This document shows, in pieces, positions 1,472 to 20,364 of a stretch of 22,663 nucleotides of DNA. Below the pieces are notes generated by a model that was not told where the DNA came from, made no database searches, and saw only the letters and a list, made by a program, of their open reading frames with translations. The stretch covers positions 546,167-568,829 of the forward strand of contig NW_003149267.1 of assembly GCF_000003605.2 (NCBI RefSeq). The letters are read 5' to 3'. Every line of letters begins with the position of its first letter. Position 1 is the stretch's first letter. This DNA is from Saccoglossus kowalevskii (lineage: Eukaryota > Hemichordata > Enteropneusta > Harrimaniidae). The translations under genes and the position numbers were made by a program.

Positions 1472-1530
1472 GTAATTTGTTTGGATCTTTCTTCTGAGAT
1501 GAATACTATTCCATTCATGTCTAAAGATGG
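1472..1530 (+). CDS. BABAM1: BABAM1 exon a (first visible), vWA strand 1
   Basis: The acceptor TTTTGTTACAG precedes GTA ATT TGT, and the exon ends in phase 2 at GG|GTGAGT. It encodes VICLDLSSEMNTIPFMSKD plus a split glycine. This corresponds to the human VIICLDLSEEMSLPKLESF segment at the start of the vWA-like domain. Confidence 0.92.
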
Positions 1531-4500
1531 GTGAGTAACAGACTACAAACAATCTGACAGTACAGTCAATTTCATGAAAGCATGAATTTTTTTTTTTTTT
1601 TCATATAAAATAAGTATAAAACTTTTATAAATATCAATTGATGATCTGCTTACTGGTTAAATTAATTAACTTAAAATTTGGTAATTAAAGTAAGGTACTG
1701 TATAACAGGTAATAAATTCAATTATACAAATTTCTATTCACAGAACCAAATATCCACCATTGCAGATGGTCAAGAGAGCTATTAATATATTCGTACACAC
1801 CAAAACTGCTATAAATAGGCAGCATGAATTTGCATTAGTGGTTCTTCAAGATAATGCATTATGGGTAAGAATTTTTTGAAATCCAACACATTTGTCACTT
1901 TTTACAAAATAAAAAATAAAAACACTTAATTTTAAAAAAAAATTTCAAAAAGTTTGATCAAAACATTATCTATTGGGCAATAGGTAATTATGTCCATTTC
2001 ATTTAAAATTATCTAAATTATTACAGAAAAATACATAAACATATGCTGAATGGAATGGACTAATTAAAATCCTCTGTTGACCTTGTTAGATTTCATTTGT
2101 CCATACATCTGTCACGGATTTTTAACCTGGAACTTGTCCTTCACTGCACAGGGTAGGGTGAGTTTTGTTTGCAGCAAAATGATTCAAATATAATACACTT
2201 TTCAATTAATTAAAGTTAAAATTTGTAAAGTAAATTAAAGTAATGTATCGTTTTAATTACATGAATAGACCTTTTTCCATTCACTGCGAGAATCACGCGT
2301 TATGCGTGAAATCGAACGTAAAACAGGACAAACAAAGGTCATAGCGTTGTAGTTGTGTCAAACATCGTGTGGGATTTGACAAACGCAAAAGTATTTTGGG
2401 GACATTTCCATGCTTAATAATGTGCTGTCCACATTTGATGATAGGCAATTTCGATTAAGTAAGGGTATTCGAAAGCAATATTCCTCTGTCGAAGACCGGC
2501 CGGTCAATGTAAGCTACGAAATAAAGAAATTCTAGTTCAAAATCAAATCGTTTGATTTTTGCGGCAGACGTTCGACGTGCGTCTTTCATGCATCTCGCGA
2601 AATCTCGCAATTGTACGGAAAATCACCTATTGAAAAATGTGTACTCTAGATTTAGCATTGTATTGCTTCAAAAATATGTACTTCTATATGCATAATGCTT
2701 GTGGTCATTTGCATACTATAATGAGAAACTACAACCATGAAGTATACAATGTAGGACAACTCACAGGGGCTATGTCATCTTCACCAGCCAAAGTCCATTT
2801 ATCTCCTCACCATTTTTCAGTGTTTACATGTTTACATCAATTTAGAGAAACTGTGTGATTCTGATGATGGACCTATGATATGTATTGTAGACAACCAATA
2901 ATAATATTCTCATGTGTGTTTTTTTCGTAGATGCATAATTTTACCAGTAACACTGAGGAGTTCTGTTATGTGTTAGCAGATCTGAACAACGATAGTGATA
3001 TTGACACCTTTGATATGTCTTCATTGTTTGATTTAATGTAAGCTTAAAAAAAAATTTTCTGTTAGTTTATTTATGGCTCATAATCCTTATTTTTGTCTAT
3101 AGACTATTGTTTTCTCTCTATACCGGTATATTTTATATATCTATACATTGTGATTAATCTTTTGTTATATATCTATTGTTATCAATCTATCTGTTCTATC
3201 CACACCCTAACATACTCTAGATACTAGTACTTGATAAAGACAGGTAGATTGAAAATACTAGTAGATAGACAACACTGGATAGACAACAATGGATAGATAA
3301 CAATGGATATATATAACAATAGATAAAGAACAATTGATTGAGTCAAATCATTTATCCAAGCCATGATTTGATTTGTTAAAAAACACTGTCAATAAATAAG
3401 CTGCTTTCTGATTGGCTTGACTGTTAGGTATTAGTGTTGTTTAGCCAATCAGGTATAGTCTTGTAAGTTACATTGATGTGACTCTGCAATAGCATTGTAC
3501 TTGTGATGACTGAGCTGATAGGAATTTGATGGATTATTTTTGAATTGATAGGTTTTTATCGTTCCCATATTCTCATTGTTGTTTATAACAATAATCTGTG
3601 GCCAGGATAACTCAGATAATTTTTATTCAATCTTTATCAACTTTAAAACAGGAAGACCTCAATGTTCTTGTAAAATACAATTCAAATGTAATCTAAAAAC
3701 AGATTTACTTGTGTGCATCTGAACCTTTATCTCTTGACACGCATAAGCGTTCTCTAATACCGTACTTGACCGCGTTAGCGCCCAGGGGCCTCAACTCAGA
3801 AAATCACAATATTTTAGGGGTGGGCGCTTACCTGAGCACCCCCCTCGAAAAAGAGTGCAAATGAAAATTTTGATTCATCAAGTGACAAATTACGTCTTTG
3901 AGGGAAAATCAAATTACTAAATTAGTTGCGTCGTCATTGATTTTCACAATGAAGAAACAGAAATGACCACAAAAAATACACACATTTTATTACAATATTA
4001 ATTACGTACCACCATAATTTACTGAATTAAAAACATTTGAGTCTGTTGGAACACAATCGAAGTCAAAATTATCATATTATTTCCACCATGATGCATTTGC
4101 AGATTTGACCTACAGCAGCGTCTATTGACCTAATGGGTCAAGTTGGTTATTAACTAATCAGAATGCTGTGTTTTGACTGACGCAATTCTTCGGAAATTCA
4201 CAAAGACTTTCCGGTAACACAATGCGGAAGTGAATTATCGATGTCGAAGTACGATCTCTTGGAATTGATTTCAGCGAATAAACGACATGGTTTTTCCAAA
4301 AAACTAATAAATAGCCATTTTTGAGAGGTAAACTGAATATGGCATGAAATATTTATCGCATTTTGCTTTTTATTAACAGGTCATTGTCGAAGCGTAGTTT
4401 ACACACGGTTATCGTATTCTACGCATTTACAACATGTTCACAGCAATCGATATCCACGCTGTATCATATAAAAACGATTACCAAGATTAGTTACGCAAGA

Positions 4501-7500
4501 CCAAGTTTTAAATTAGTTGCATTTTGAAGGGGTGAGCGCTTTGCCGAATGTGACCCCAAATATAAAAATTGCGCAAAAGTGGGGGATGGGCGCTTGCCCG
4601 GGCATGGGCGCTAACGCGGTCAAGTACGGTAATAAAAACAAACATGGTTGCCACCAGGGTTTGACCGAGCAAAGAAGTTCGCTGATTCAGATTCTATTCT
4701 AAACTTTTTGGATTTCGGCATTCCCATGGTGTATCCTTCAAAGGAAAAAATGTATAATAATAAGGTTATTACAAGGATACCTCAAAGTATGCACTCAGAC
4801 AGTATGCTGTCGTATCGACCTCCTCTGTGCATCTGTCTCTACTTGCGCTGTACTGTCTTCGTGCAATCTTTGAGGTATTCTCGTAATAACCTCATATTCA
4901 TTTGAGGATCCAACTCAAAACGGCGGCCAAATAATTCATAAATTTTATAACCACTGTTCTCATTTCATTTTCATTACTACAATGGGTATGATGTTTGACC
5001 TTTGACCCACATATCCCCACTAAACAGAAAGTCCTGCTCCCATTCCCCAAGAATTGTTCCTAATTTTGTTGATAAATTAACAGTTATTTCATTGAGTTTG
5101 TAGCCATTATGACATAATTTTCATCATAAATCACAGTATAGTTCACAAATCATGCACAAGATGATGAATAGTTTTGCTAGATTTGAATTACCCCCCCCCC
5201 CCTCCATTATTAAAATTATAACATATGGGGAAACAGTATCGTTCAATTTTTTTAAATTATGTCATGACATCATGTAATTAATTATTCATGAAGACTAACA
5301 AGTAAAAAAATTTTAAAAAGGGGTCAATATATTGATAACTCCTGTGGCATTAAACAACTTTCCCTAGGATTCATTAAATCATCTAAAACACAAGGTTGGG
5401 GTTTGAAAATGTCTTTATTAGTCCCCGTTCGGACGAAAATGTCGTATTTTGGACATGCTTTGTCAGTTTTCATTCAAACTTGGTACATAGAATATACATG
5501 TTAGGATACATGTTCATGACGATTTATTTCACAATTGGATCAAAGATGGCCGACTGGCAGCCATCTTGTTTTTTGAAAATGTTGTATTTTGGACATGCTT
5601 TATCAGTTGTCATTCAAATTTAGTACATAGATCATACATGTTAGGATACATGTCCCCGATCGTCCGTGAGTTCCTGAGTCTGTCCGTCCGTCTGTGTGTC
5701 CGTCCTTCCGTGCATCAGTCTGTCCAGAGTCATATCTCAGAATCCTTTGGACTGATTCCGTTCATTCTTTGCATGTGCCTAGTCCTTTATGTGGGACATA
5801 TGCACATGCAGCGGTTTAGCGATTTGATTCAAAATGGCCGACTGGCAGCCATCTTGTTTTTTGAAAATGTTGTATTTTGGACATGATTTGTCAGTTGTCA
5901 TTCAAACTTGGTACATAGATTATAAATGTTAGGATACATGTCCATGACAATTTATTTCGCAATTGGATCAAAGATGGTCGACTGGCAGCCATCTGGTTTT
6001 TTGAAAATATTGTATTTTGGTCATGCTTTGTCAGTTGTCATTCAGACTTGGTACATAGATTATACATGTTAGGATACATGTCCATGACAATTTATTTCGC
6101 AATTGGATCAAAGATGGTCGACTGGCAGGCATCTTGTTTGTTTTTTTATGCGGTATCTTGGACGTGCTCTGTCAGTTTTCATTCAAATTTGGCACATACA
6201 TGTACTTTATACATGTTAGGATGCATGTCCATGACAATTTGTTTCAAAATCTGGTCAAGGATGGCCGATTGATAGCATCTGATTTTTTGGCCTTACTACT
6301 ATATTTCCACAATTTATGTACCATTTTCATTCGTATTTGGCACATACATCATACATATCAGTGTGTTTCATAATCAGATCAAAGATGGCTGAATAACAAC
6401 TGTTTTTATTTTGGCCATATTACTACTACACGGAACAAGTGTTTTGATGTAAATAAACAATCTGTTGTATACGTCACTTGGAACTCAAGTTTCAAGGACA
6501 CGTCGCGATAACCCCTCCGCTTTAATATGACGAGCACAGAGAGAACTTTCAAAAATTTAACTGGGACTGTGTCATTTTCAATGACTTGTTGTTTTATCAT
6601 TTGTACGTTTTGTCCTAATTTGATCTGTTTCACTATACCACATTCTATGATTACCCTCATTCTATTTTTAGTAAGACCTCATTCAGCCAATCATGTGGCT
6701 TGCATGAAATCAATGTCAACATTTCATTCGGTATTTTCTTAATGTCGCAATAATAGAAGTATGTGCAAATTGTTTGTCTGTCTGTCCATCCATCCATCCG
6801 TCCAAAGACATTTTCTATTGTCTTTGGTTCGTCTGTCTGGCACCAGCATATCTTGTTCATATAATCCTGCATGGCAAAATAACAAAGTTAATTATTTTTC
6901 CAGTTATGAAAAAGTTGATCTTCCCCCTATTAAGGGAAATATTGAGATAATACCACCACCGTATATTGTGCGTACTATTATGATATATGGCCGATCGAAC
7001 TGTGTGCCTGAATTCCATAGCGGTCAAGAGGTAGGTTCAATAAATCTTGATGAGTTGTGATTGGTTCATTCACAATATTCTGATTTGTAAGCAGTCACGG
7101 CATTTGAAACTCTGCTTATTATTATGCCTTTTGTAGCTAAATAATCTCCCTCTAATCATGACACCTCAGATAATTTATTTATGTACATTGCTTACAAAGT
7201 GTGTTACTTGATTAGAAGTCATTATTTCATTATAGAAGTCATTATTTCTTTATAGACACAAAAGATTTTGATGCAATCCCCATACTTCTTCATGGATATA
7301 TTTTACATTCATGAAGCACCGGCGGAAAGCAATTATTGTGAGGTATGTACTAGTATGCAACCTGTTTATTTGCATATTGTATTGTTATATTGTGAGGTAT
7401 GTATGCAACCTGTGTATTTGCATATTGTATTGTTATATTGTGAGGTATGTATGCAACTGTTTATTTGTATATTGTATTTTTATATTGTGAGGTATGTATG

Positions 7501-8810
7501 CAATCTGTTTATTTGCATATTGTATTGTTATATTGTGAGGTATGTATGCAACCTGTTTATTTGCATATTGTATTGTTATATTGTGAGGTATGTATGCAAT
7601 CTGTTTATTTGCATATTGTATTGTTATATTGTGAGGTATGTATGCAATCTGTTTATTTGCATATTGTATTGTTATATTGTGAGGTATGTATGCAACTGTT
7701 TATTTGCATATTGTATTGTTATATTGTGAGGTATGTATGCAACCTTGTTTATTTGCATATTGTATTGTTATATTGTGAGGTATGTATGCAACTGTTTATT
7801 TTCATATTGTATTGTTATATTGTGAGGTATGTATGCAACCTGTTTATTTGCATATTGTATTGTTATATTGTGAGGTATGTATGCAATCTGTTTATTTGCT
7901 CATTGTATTGTTATATTGTGAGGTATGTATGCAACCTTGTTTATTTGCATATTGTATTGTTATATTGTGAGGTATGTATGAAACCTGTTCATTTGCATAT
8001 TGTATTGTTATATTGTGAGGTATGTATGTAACCTGTTCATTTGCATATTGTATAGTTATATTTATTGCATTTAAAATTGTTAAAAAAAATTGTTGCATTT
8101 CAAACTGCGCATGCACACACATAGTAATTTCTTGAAATGCATACTAATTAAGTAACTTGGCAAAAATTATGTGCAACTTTGAACACTAGTACTAGAGTAA
8201 AACACCAAAGTGCTTCTGCATTCTTCATGAATCTTCAGTTTGCTAGTTTCTGATCAAAAATCCGTCCTGAAAAACACTACATCAGTTTTTCAATTATTTT
8301 TCCAACTCATAATTATAGGATCAGTCAAATTATAACTATCATGCTGGCTATTGGAATACATTTTGTCATTTCACTTATGAATATTAATTTATGCAAATGA
8401 ATGATTTTATTTCATCCAGCCTTGTCATCCCTCTCCCTCGCTATATTTCATATTTTCAAATGTTTATATTGAGTTACTAGTAGGGATTCATAATGGAAAT
8501 ATTTGTTTTTCCATGGGTGCATGGGTTAATTAAAGTGATATCGGCAGTATTCCAGAGGTTTATGTCCCATCAAGAGTGTCAGAGTTTTATAATATAAGTT
8601 TCCTACCTTTAGTAAAAATATGTTTTTGTTTTGTTTTAGGAGATATTTGATAGTTTGTGTGAACTGGATGAAGGAGGAAAATCATTTGTGTTTGAAGTTG
8701 GCAGAAATCCAACCTATCTCCATGACAACATGGCAAAACTTGTAGCTCATCCATTACAGCGACCGTTACAGAGAAACATCAACTACAAATTAAATCATGA
8801 GATTAGCTGA
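1472..8810 (+). CDS. BABAM1: BRISC and BRCA1-A complex member 1 (MERIT40), 5'-partial, six exons
   Basis: BABAM1/MERIT40 is the scaffold that holds together the BRCC36-containing K63-deubiquitinase complexes: BRCA1-A (nuclear DNA-damage response) and BRISC (cytoplasmic). Exons are 1472-1530, 1744-1864, 2931-3037, 6904-7030, 7256-7342 and 8640-8810. Joined, they give 672 nt, or 223 residues plus TGA. All introns are GT-AG and phases are consistent. The fragment starts at the first beta strand of the vWA-like domain (VICLDLSSEM, compare human VIICLDLSEEM). It continues through HEFALVV (about 47-53), IPPPYIVRT (112-120), SPYFFMDIFYIH (146-157) and HDNMAKLVAHPLQRP (195-209), all matching the human protein nearly without gaps. 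As in human, the MIDAS DxSxS motif is incomplete. The acidic C-terminal tail is shorter. The N-terminal disordered part, about 95 residues in human, is missing and presumably lies upstream. Confidence 0.95.
1744..1864 (+). CDS. BABAM1: BABAM1 exon b
   Basis: The acceptor is TTCACAG and the donor TGG|GTAAGA, phase 0. The translation contains MVKRAINIFVHTK and HEFALVVLQDNALW, matching human MIEMFVRTK and HEFALVVVNDDTAW. Confidence 0.95.
2265..2630. mobile_element. 366-bp MITE with about 48-bp imperfect TIRs and TGA target duplication
   Basis: The left end is ATAGACCTTTTTCC..TGCGAGA..CGCG..ATGCGTGAAA. The right end, read in reverse complement, is ATAGGTGATTTTCC..TGCGAGA..CGCG..ATGCATGAAA. The trinucleotide TGA flanks both sides (2262-2264 and 2631-2633). 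There is no coding capacity. It lies in BABAM1 intron 2, and a lone related end lies at 1035-1115. Confidence 0.72.
2931..3037 (+). CDS. BABAM1: BABAM1 exon c
   Basis: The acceptor is TTTTTTCGTAG and the donor AAT|GTAAGC, phase 2. It encodes MHNFTSNTEEFCYVLADL..., aligning without gaps to human LSGLTSDPRELCSCLYDL, and then SSLFDL. Confidence 0.94.
3264..3340 (+). repeat. Short minisatellite, unit about 15 bp (GGATAGACAACAAT)
   Basis: About five diverging copies of GGATAGACAACAAT/GGATAGATAACAAT follow one another. The upstream strand at 3160-3205 carries complementary motifs (TTGTTATATATCTATTGTTATC...TCTATCC), so the two halves can pair as an imperfect hairpin across 3160-3340. Lies in BABAM1 intron 3. 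Confidence 0.6.
3758..4631. mobile_element. 874-bp non-autonomous DNA transposon with perfect 27-bp TIRs
   Basis: Both ends begin TACCGTACTTGACCGCGTTA followed by GCGCCCA, a perfect 27-bp inverted repeat (3758-3784 and 4605-4631). Subterminal repeats of the GGGCGCTT/GAGCGCTT type occur at both sides. The outer TA may be the duplicated target. There is no long ORF inside, so it would depend on a transposase in trans. Lies in BABAM1 intron 3. Confidence 0.8.
4757..4898. mobile_element. About 142-bp MITE with about 43-bp TIRs
   Basis: The left arm AAGGTTATTACAAGGATACC then TCAAAGTATGCACTCAGACAG pairs with the right arm. In reverse complement the right arm reads GAGGTTATTACGAGAATACC then TCAAAGATTGCACGAAGACAG. 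Nearly the whole element is therefore two inverted arms around a pyrimidine-rich centre. Confidence 0.7.
5191..5202 (+). repeat. Poly-C run of 12
   Basis: A homopolymer of twelve C in BABAM1 intron 3. A matching 12-G run occurs at 13991-14002. Confidence 0.9.
5405..6430 (+). repeat. Tandem array, unit about 140 bp, in BABAM1 intron 3
   Basis: Units carry TATTTTGGACATGCTTTGTC, CATTCAAACTTGGTACATAG, ACATGTTAGGATACATGTCC and AAGATGGCCGACTGGCAGCC in order. The AAGATGG block recurs at about 5542, 5831, 5970, 6110, 6257 and 6381. Central copies are very alike, and the last two are diverged. The gap between the first two is 289 bp because 5650-5815 holds a different segment rich in GTCCGTCC plus a block around TTTATGTGGGACATATGCAC. 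Several short open frames across it only translate the repeat. Not coding. Confidence 0.85.
6904..7030 (+). CDS. BABAM1: BABAM1 exon d, IPPPYIVRT block
   Basis: The acceptor is TTTTTCCAG and the donor GAG|GTAGGT, phase 0. The first base completes the isoleucine codon from exon c. The exon carries the family-diagnostic IPPPYIVRTIMIYGRS, compare human IPPPYVVRTILVYSRP. Confidence 0.96.
7214..7255 (+). repeat. Duplicated 3' splice site of BABAM1 exon e (two 20-bp units)
   Basis: AGAAGTCATTATTTCATTAT (7214-7233) is followed directly by AGAAGTCATTATTTCTTTAT (7234-7253) and then AG. Each unit ends at a TATAG that can act as an acceptor, at 7235 or 7255. Only the latter keeps the BABAM1 frame. The former would add 20 nt. 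Confidence 0.85.
7256..7342 (+). CDS. BABAM1: BABAM1 exon e, between duplicated splice sites
   Basis: The exon runs from TTTATAG|ACA to TGTGAG|GTATGT, phase 0 at both ends, 29 codons. It encodes TQKILMQSPYFFMDIFYIHE and a short variable end (...SNYCE). Human has SWKDMF-type sequence after its own variable loop. Both its splice sites are tandemly repeated: the acceptor twice, the donor 15 times. Confidence 0.95.
7339..8065 (+). repeat. 48-bp minisatellite repeating the exon e 5' splice site, about 15 units
   Basis: The unit reads GTATGTATGCAACCTGTTTA then TTTGCATATTGTATTGTTATATTGTGAG. GAG|GTATGT junctions fall with the intron base at 7343 (the true donor), 7397, 7445, 7492, 7540, 7588, 7636, 7684, 7731, 7780, 7827, 7875, 7923, 7972 and 8020. 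Spacing is 54 for the first unit (a 6-base ACTAGT-type insert) and 47-49 afterwards. The final unit is truncated. Each unit includes at least the eight last exon bases (ATTGTGAG). Confidence 0.95.
8640..8810 (+). CDS. BABAM1: BABAM1 terminal exon
   Basis: The acceptor TTTTGTTTTAG precedes GAG ATA TTT. The exon encodes 56 residues with FDSLCELDEGGKSFVFEV (human MFAFMGSLDTKGTSYKYEV) and the conserved MAKLVAHPLQRP, then TGA at 8808-8810. The tail after HPLQRP is 14 residues, shorter than the human 23 and without its acidic run. Confidence 0.95.
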   Translation, partial: EIFDSLCELDEGGKSFVFEVGRNPTYLHDNMAKLVAHPLQRPLQRNINYKLNHEIS

Positions 8811-19854: not shown

Positions 19855-20364
19855 GATGCCTCAAAGCTCTTTGATTGTATGAATCAATGGACGTACATGT
19901 AGTTATGCAAATTACTCTCAAGAGGTGTGCCTAAATTTATTGTGTGTTGTTATACACACCAACAGTTTAATGTCAGATGGGCTTATTTTCTGTCTGAAAG
20001 CTTTCATGCACTAAACTTTGCGAGTCAGAGTGGTATTTTGTCACCCCGTCTTTTTACAGTGTATGTTCATGACCTTAGAAACCGGGGTCATACATGTATG
20101 TCTGGAAGATTTCTGGATCATTTGATGTTCGCTGACGACTTGGTGTAGTATTAGCTGTGTTCCTATGTATATTTAGACAAGATTAAAGTTTAATTTCTCA
20201 ATGAAAAATTATATTTAAGATTATTAATTAATGGTTTACATAGCTGGTAATGGTAATTCCAATATTAGACGTCGTATGAAATCATTTTATGCTAAGCTTA
20301 AGATACTAAGATTTTTGGATTGCTATTCTATGAATTGTTCACACATGTGGTGTATTTTCAAAGA
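19855..20364 (+). pseudogene. Non-LTR retrotransposon reverse transcriptase fragment
   Basis: Reading from GAT at 19855 the frame gives DASKLFDCMNQW, a TAG at 19900, then LLSRGVPKF, YTHQQFNVRW, SGILSPRLFTVYVHDL and FADDLV before a TAG at 20146. These correspond to RT motifs DASKAFD, RGVP, GGILSPxLFNVYxxDL and the catalytic YADD, here FADD. The block NSNIRRRMKSFYAKLKIL follows in the +1 frame from 20249. It matches the conserved DIRRQMRCFYAK segment downstream of YADD. The spacing is shorter than usual, so an internal deletion is likely. The clade is probably CR1/jockey-like. It is inactive because of stops, the frameshift and truncation. Confidence 0.85.

Follow-up and report, generated by a model that had tools for sequence, protein, structure and literature searches.

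A minisatellite carries fifteen copies of the exon-intron junction that precedes the last coding exon of BABAM1

The window, meaning the whole 22,663-nt stretch of DNA that was analysed, corresponds to C3943:546167-568829 of an assembly with 4,830 contigs and 572 Mb in total, and a large part of the BABAM1 (MERIT40/NBA1) gene lies on the plus strand of the window. Translated together, the last three exons give a peptide that matched BRISC and BRCA1-A complex member 1 in the PDB with a best E of 5.6e-26 (phmmer; five distinct sequences, with residues 3-125 of 127 aligned), and a Pfam scan of the same peptide returned 0 families; in both searches the query was approximate, as it carried two incorrect residues at the exon d/e junction. 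The three exons placed further upstream, which we take to belong to the gene, were positioned by eye from likeness to the MERIT40 sequence. The exon set covers 1472 to 8810 and is listed here together with the array and the basis of each placement.

1472-1530, plus strand: first placed exon of BABAM1 (reading frame, splice sites)
1744-1864, plus strand: second placed exon of BABAM1 (reading frame, splice sites)
2931-3037, plus strand: third placed exon of BABAM1, exon c (reading frame, splice sites)
6904-7030, plus strand: exon d of BABAM1 (phmmer alignment, splice sites)
7256-7342, plus strand: exon e of BABAM1, 87 nt, ending in TATTGTGAG (phmmer alignment, splice sites)
7334-7342, plus strand: the nine exon bases copied into every unit, TATTGTGAG (junction comparison)
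7334-8065, plus strand: minisatellite array of 15 units (TRF, junction positions)
8640-8810, plus strand: last coding exon, f, with the stop codon at 8808-8810 (phmmer alignment, frame)

The last exon is intact and aligns with human and mouse MERIT40 through its conserved end (phmmer). When the corrected BABAM1 peptide was searched against the 572-Mb assembly, three matches were obtained, all at this locus (E up to 0.001), and DNA of exon e plus the first unit gave 14 matches, all inside the array, in a search that passes over very common words. BABAM1 is single-copy in the assembly, and no retrocopy or second haplotype carrying the spliced junction was found there, the peptide having matched one locus. 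The original prediction had assigned the array to intron 5, a number that is correct only when counting begins at the first placed exon (1472); the intron concerned is the one that separates exon e from the last coding exon. Elsewhere in the window, TRF reports a 140-bp repeat of 3.3 copies at 5829-6289, in the intron between exons c and d, and an open reading frame fragment at 19903-20148 contains HLMFADDLV, which we take to resemble a LINE reverse transcriptase motif.

Exon e terminates in ...AATTATTGTGAG and the intron begins with GTATGT. This junction, TATTGTGAG/GTATGT, is present 15 times on the plus strand between 7334 and 8025, within a tandem repeat that TRF places at 7353-8062 with a period of 48, 14.8 copies and 95% matches. 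Donor-to-donor unit lengths are 54 (once), 48 (eight times), 47 (three times) and 49 bp (twice). The 48-bp unit proposed earlier therefore describes the period well, but not the first unit, which measures 54 bp owing to an extra CTAGTA, and only approximately the other 13 complete units (47-49 bp). The last unit diverges past GTTATATT at 8062, the TRF endpoint. Each of the 15 GTATGT sites has ATTGTGAG directly on its 5' side, as expected from the claim that at least the last eight exon bases are carried in every unit; the shared stretch is in fact nine bases long, and the nine-base donors are identical in 15/15 units.

The 18-mer TATTGTGAGGTATGTATG matches the window 15 times when up to three mismatches are allowed, 14 times exactly and in unit 1 with two, compared with an expectation of 0.04 in window shuffles. 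Both mismatches of unit 1 fall just past the donor, leaving a 15-nt core as the only part invariant in all 15 units. The word GAGGTATGT occurs 15 times on the plus strand of the window and 0 times on the minus strand, and the 14 complete units comprise 10 distinct sequences. The array of copied junctions is thus well beyond chance, and with the identity of the gene established by phmmer, the central claim that a minisatellite copies a BABAM1 exon-intron junction stands. For comparison, four 10-kb stretches (26,586 readable bases, all others being N, a sample too small for a rate) contained seven TRF rows, none with more than 3.2 copies.

The other end of exon e is also repetitive. A 20-bp repeat of 2.2 copies at 7213-7256 (plus strand, TRF) ends at the 3' splice site and duplicates the TTATAG acceptor, with AG at 7234-7235 and 7254-7255, so both ends of the exon lie within tandem repeats. 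If the upstream AG were used, the exon would start at 7236, and the resulting frame shift leads to a stop after 11 residues.

The architecture of the array suggests how it may have arisen. A tandem duplication across the junction would have started nine bases inside exon e, and its probable seed is TATT, a microhomology shared by the exon end (TATTGTGAG, 7334) and the intron sequence TATTTATTG at 8059. TATT is found at both array edges, with GTTATATT (8062) directly before the intronic TATTGCA. The copied segment would have comprised nine exon bases and approximately 39 (originally 45) intron bases; CTAGTA, which follows GTATGTA in unit 1 alone, would then have been lost in an inner copy, and slippage or unequal exchange would have expanded the array to 15 units. 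Three groups of identical sequence (4, 6 and 7; 5 and 11; 9 and 13) account for seven inner units, and the TTCATTTG variant is common to units 14 and 15 and absent from the others. Such identical inner groups and edge-unit variants are as expected from within-array copying. Private changes are not confined to the edge units but are also found in inner units 2, 3, 10 and 12, which fits more than one order of growth.

The consequences of using each copy were predicted by joining every donor in silico to the acceptor at 8640, whereby exon e takes a length of 87 nt with donor 1, 141 nt with donor 2 and 189 nt with donor 3, rising to 764 nt with donor 15.

7343-7348, plus strand: donor 1 (GTATGT), the presumed ancestral 5' splice site; in frame, +0 residues
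7397-7402, plus strand: donor 2; +54 nt, in frame, +18 residues
7445-7450, plus strand: donor 3; +102 nt, in frame, +34 residues
7492-7689, plus strand: donors 4-8 (7492, 7540, 7588, 7636, 7684); last-exon frame shifted
7731-8025, plus strand: donors 9-15 (7731, 7780, 7827, 7875, 7923, 7972, 8020); TGA stop

Only donors 1-3 of the 15 are predicted to give messages without stops that retain the normal C-terminus; donors 2 and 3 keep the frame, and the other 12 of the 14 downstream donors do not. Messages from donors 4-8 would read through the array and enter exon f out of frame, meeting a stop codon that ends 106 nt beyond the junction. Those from donors 9-15 all reach the TGA at 7727-7729, and the last junction follows 1, 50, 97, 145, 193, 242 and 290 nt further downstream, respectively. 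Under the usual 50-nt rule, the distances of 97-290 nt make donors 11-15 candidates for nonsense-mediated decay (NMD), taking exon f as the last exon, with no introns in the 3' UTR. The in-frame insertions would be placed between ...AESNYCE and EIFDSL, five residues past a three-residue gap in the alignment with human MERIT40. Because of this nearby gap, we infer that the insertion site is a loop of variable length within the VWA domain, which is reported to be C-terminal in MERIT40 (PMC7692841). Most members of the ladder of isoforms envisaged in the original prediction would accordingly be frameshifted or of NMD type, and buffering of the junction against mutation would be workable only through donors 1-3.

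Competition among the 15 sites is plausible from their sequence, but the description of fifteen equivalent donors needs qualification. The nine-base donors are identical throughout, whereas donors 2-15 are predicted to pair with the U1 5' end at -8.8 kcal/mol and donor 1 slightly less well, at -8.3 kcal/mol, and the messages differ as described above. The other four placed BABAM1 donors have predicted values of -12.0, -9.2, -4.3 and -10.4 kcal/mol, which would make the copied donors mid-strength: weaker than three of the four other donors in the gene, and not weaker than donor 1.

The reading we favour, with a probability of about 0.6, is that the array was born by tandem duplication and that donor 1 is dominant, donors 2 and 3 give minor in-frame forms, and the later donors are rarely used and mostly non-productive. 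Exon definition couples the acceptor at 7255 to the closest good donor, which gives the 87-nt exon, and donor 1 would on this ground be expected to remain dominant. Donors 2 and 3 would yield minor forms with +18 and +34 residues in the VWA loop, and later donors would be used rarely, with mostly non-productive products; most copies would be neutral. Substantial and productive use of donors 1-3, donor 1 first, is what we infer from a single gene locus, a C-terminal VWA domain and a last exon that is intact and conserved. There are counterpoints to this reading. Of the 15 donors, donor 1 is predicted to pair least well with U1, although by only 0.5 kcal/mol, and in a very young array the conserved last exon would speak only of the past. 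Furthermore, in classic experiments with duplicated donors (Eperon 1993; Hodson 2012) the intron-proximal site can reportedly prevail when several sites are bound by U1; if applied here, such a preference would favour the unproductive donors 11-15.

Two possible signs of function beyond donor choice were rejected. RNA structure does not appear to be the function of the array, as the 732-nt sequence has a folding z of +1.86 and 20/20 shuffles fold at least as well. Nor is there a genome-wide excess of such donor-word arrays. In the whole assembly the pattern GAGGTATGTN{25,55}GAGGTATGT was matched 15 times forward and 66 times in reverse, fewer than the 183 and 239 times of the pattern written backwards (all counts being matches, not loci). 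The BABAM1 array accounts for 14/15 forward matches, while 48/66 reverse matches lie on C4030 and 8/66 on C3398. The former stem from a 21-bp array of GAGGTATGTGGTCTTCATAGA near the contig start (C4030:725-1916). The latter contig carries a 38-bp array of 13.6 copies (C3398:16737-17254) directly after an open reading frame ending in TAG, and its unit repeats TCATAG together with GAGGTATGT; this looks like 3' UTR at a coding edge, apparently with no splice junction. The unit core was, as expected, not found in the prokaryote contigs scanned.

It is possible, but in our view unlikely, that the array is inert, with donor 1 as the sole donor used and the copies either silent decoys or simply removed with the intron. 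The ordinary folding of the unit RNA fits this reading, and since the paired GAGGTATGT matches are not in excess, the assembly bears no mark of such arrays being favoured. The copies nevertheless retain all nine donor bases and have predicted U1 pairing at least equal to that of donor 1, and, judging from human IFI6, near repeats can serve as donors (PMC4526556).

A somewhat more doubtful alternative is that the array tunes expression as a poison element: U1 would sit on several donors, distal ones would partly win, transcripts from donors 11-15 would be destroyed by NMD, and the repeat number would set a BABAM1 level that varies between individuals. The 15/15 intact donors and the position of the stop at 7727-7729, 97-290 nt before the last junction for donors 11-15, are compatible with such a role. 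None of the 11 variable unit columns falls in the 15-nt core, which corresponds to P=0.0086 if the core is regarded as fixed beforehand, but to P=0.136 once any 15-nt window counts. The corresponding values are P=0.074 and 0.80 for the 9-nt donor alone, and P=0.0024 and 0.043 for an 18-nt version. Left out of these 11 columns are the column of the single-T insertion, CTAGTA in unit 1 and the divergent end of unit 15. As the units are non-independent, the core was picked after viewing the array, and unit 1 is uncounted for CTAGTA, these values give only a weak hint of selection on the copied donor core. Homogenisation by itself also keeps cores alike, and the extended exons of 571-764 nt that donors 11-15 would require exceed usual animal exon lengths.

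An assembly artefact that inflated the copy number is very unlikely. Tandem arrays are often mis-sized in assemblies, and this general tendency is the point in its favour, but the 10 distinct sequences in 14 complete units and the distinctive edge units count against it because single-read stutter would give identical units. We consider it similarly far-fetched that the donor array is a self-restoring reservoir of splice sites, in which U1 on many units and scarless GAG/GTATGT splicing within the array would let repeat number apportion the output among long in-frame forms, transcripts bound for NMD and normal BABAM1, the exon being duplicated at both ends (acceptor 2.2 times, donor 15 times). 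Barely credible is recursive splicing, where the unit would also act as an AG acceptor and a donor would join a later GAG, regenerate GAG/GTATGT and leave a normal mRNA: the unit boundaries do read GAG/GTATGT and the pyrimidine content before the 14 unit AGs is 0.61 (one 0.67), as at the exon e acceptor (0.61; a comparison that leaves out two of the six acceptor rows, which are off by one base), but GAG is the least favoured acceptor triplet, a 48-nt unit is near or below animal intron minima, and a CTRAY-type branch motif is absent from the unit. The AGGT tandem duplication that this reading shares with a published intron-gain model (PMC4974935) is considered below.

If its copies are used, the array would amount to a natural titration series, in which identical 5' splice sites lie at graded distances from a single acceptor and the frame outcomes are known. 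It would then be a direct test of exon definition (first donor) against intron proximity (last donor) with donor strength nearly constant. If the copies are unused, it is an instructive neutral array.

The closest known system is human IFI6, where the minisatellite has a 12-bp unit that adds residues in steps of four, the nearest repeat donors keep the reading frame, and copy number differs between individuals. To our knowledge, the IFI6 case is known from humans only. The IFI6 (6-16/G1P3) minisatellite is described as one that 'provides multiple splice donor sites' (Turri, Cuin and Porter 1995), and two downstream repeat units are reported to be used as splice donors (PMC4526556). In both genes a minisatellite supplies multiple splice donors, in BABAM1 with TATTGTGAG/GTATGT in 15/15 units, and in both the near donors are in frame, BABAM1 donors 2 and 3 being without stops. 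This shared architecture agrees with the prediction for BABAM1 donors 1-3. The two cases differ in gene and sequence, the BABAM1 unit is longer (48 bp), and its frame is lost beyond donor 3; moreover, use of repeat donors is reported for IFI6 (PMC4526556), while for BABAM1 it is predicted. The arrangement is real and odd, as the original prediction held, but it is less singular than was supposed: it is a further case of the IFI6 kind, already precedented in human. Among the matches listed in a search of the open-access literature (titles and abstract starts), no other minisatellite spanning an exon/donor junction was found. Minisatellites (VNTRs) have been linked to altered splicing in ABCA7 (PMC5954066), MIR137 (PMC6692358) and TERT (VNTR6-1, PMC11830802); those of ABCA7 and TERT are termed intronic in these reports, whereas the BABAM1 array spans an exon junction. 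Intron gain, too, is described to arise through tandem duplications that cross an exon/intron boundary (PMC4974935), and there, as in BABAM1, splice signals are copied. The duplicated BABAM1 segment contains AGGT, as the AGGT model of intron gain requires. In the intron-gain case the 3' side of the intron was duplicated once and the new intron is supported by RNA-seq, whereas in BABAM1 the 5' side is present 15 times. If the BABAM1 copies are used, the IFI6 case would be extended to a DNA-repair gene in another animal, and boundary-spanning minisatellites would be suggested as a recurrent source of exon elongation.
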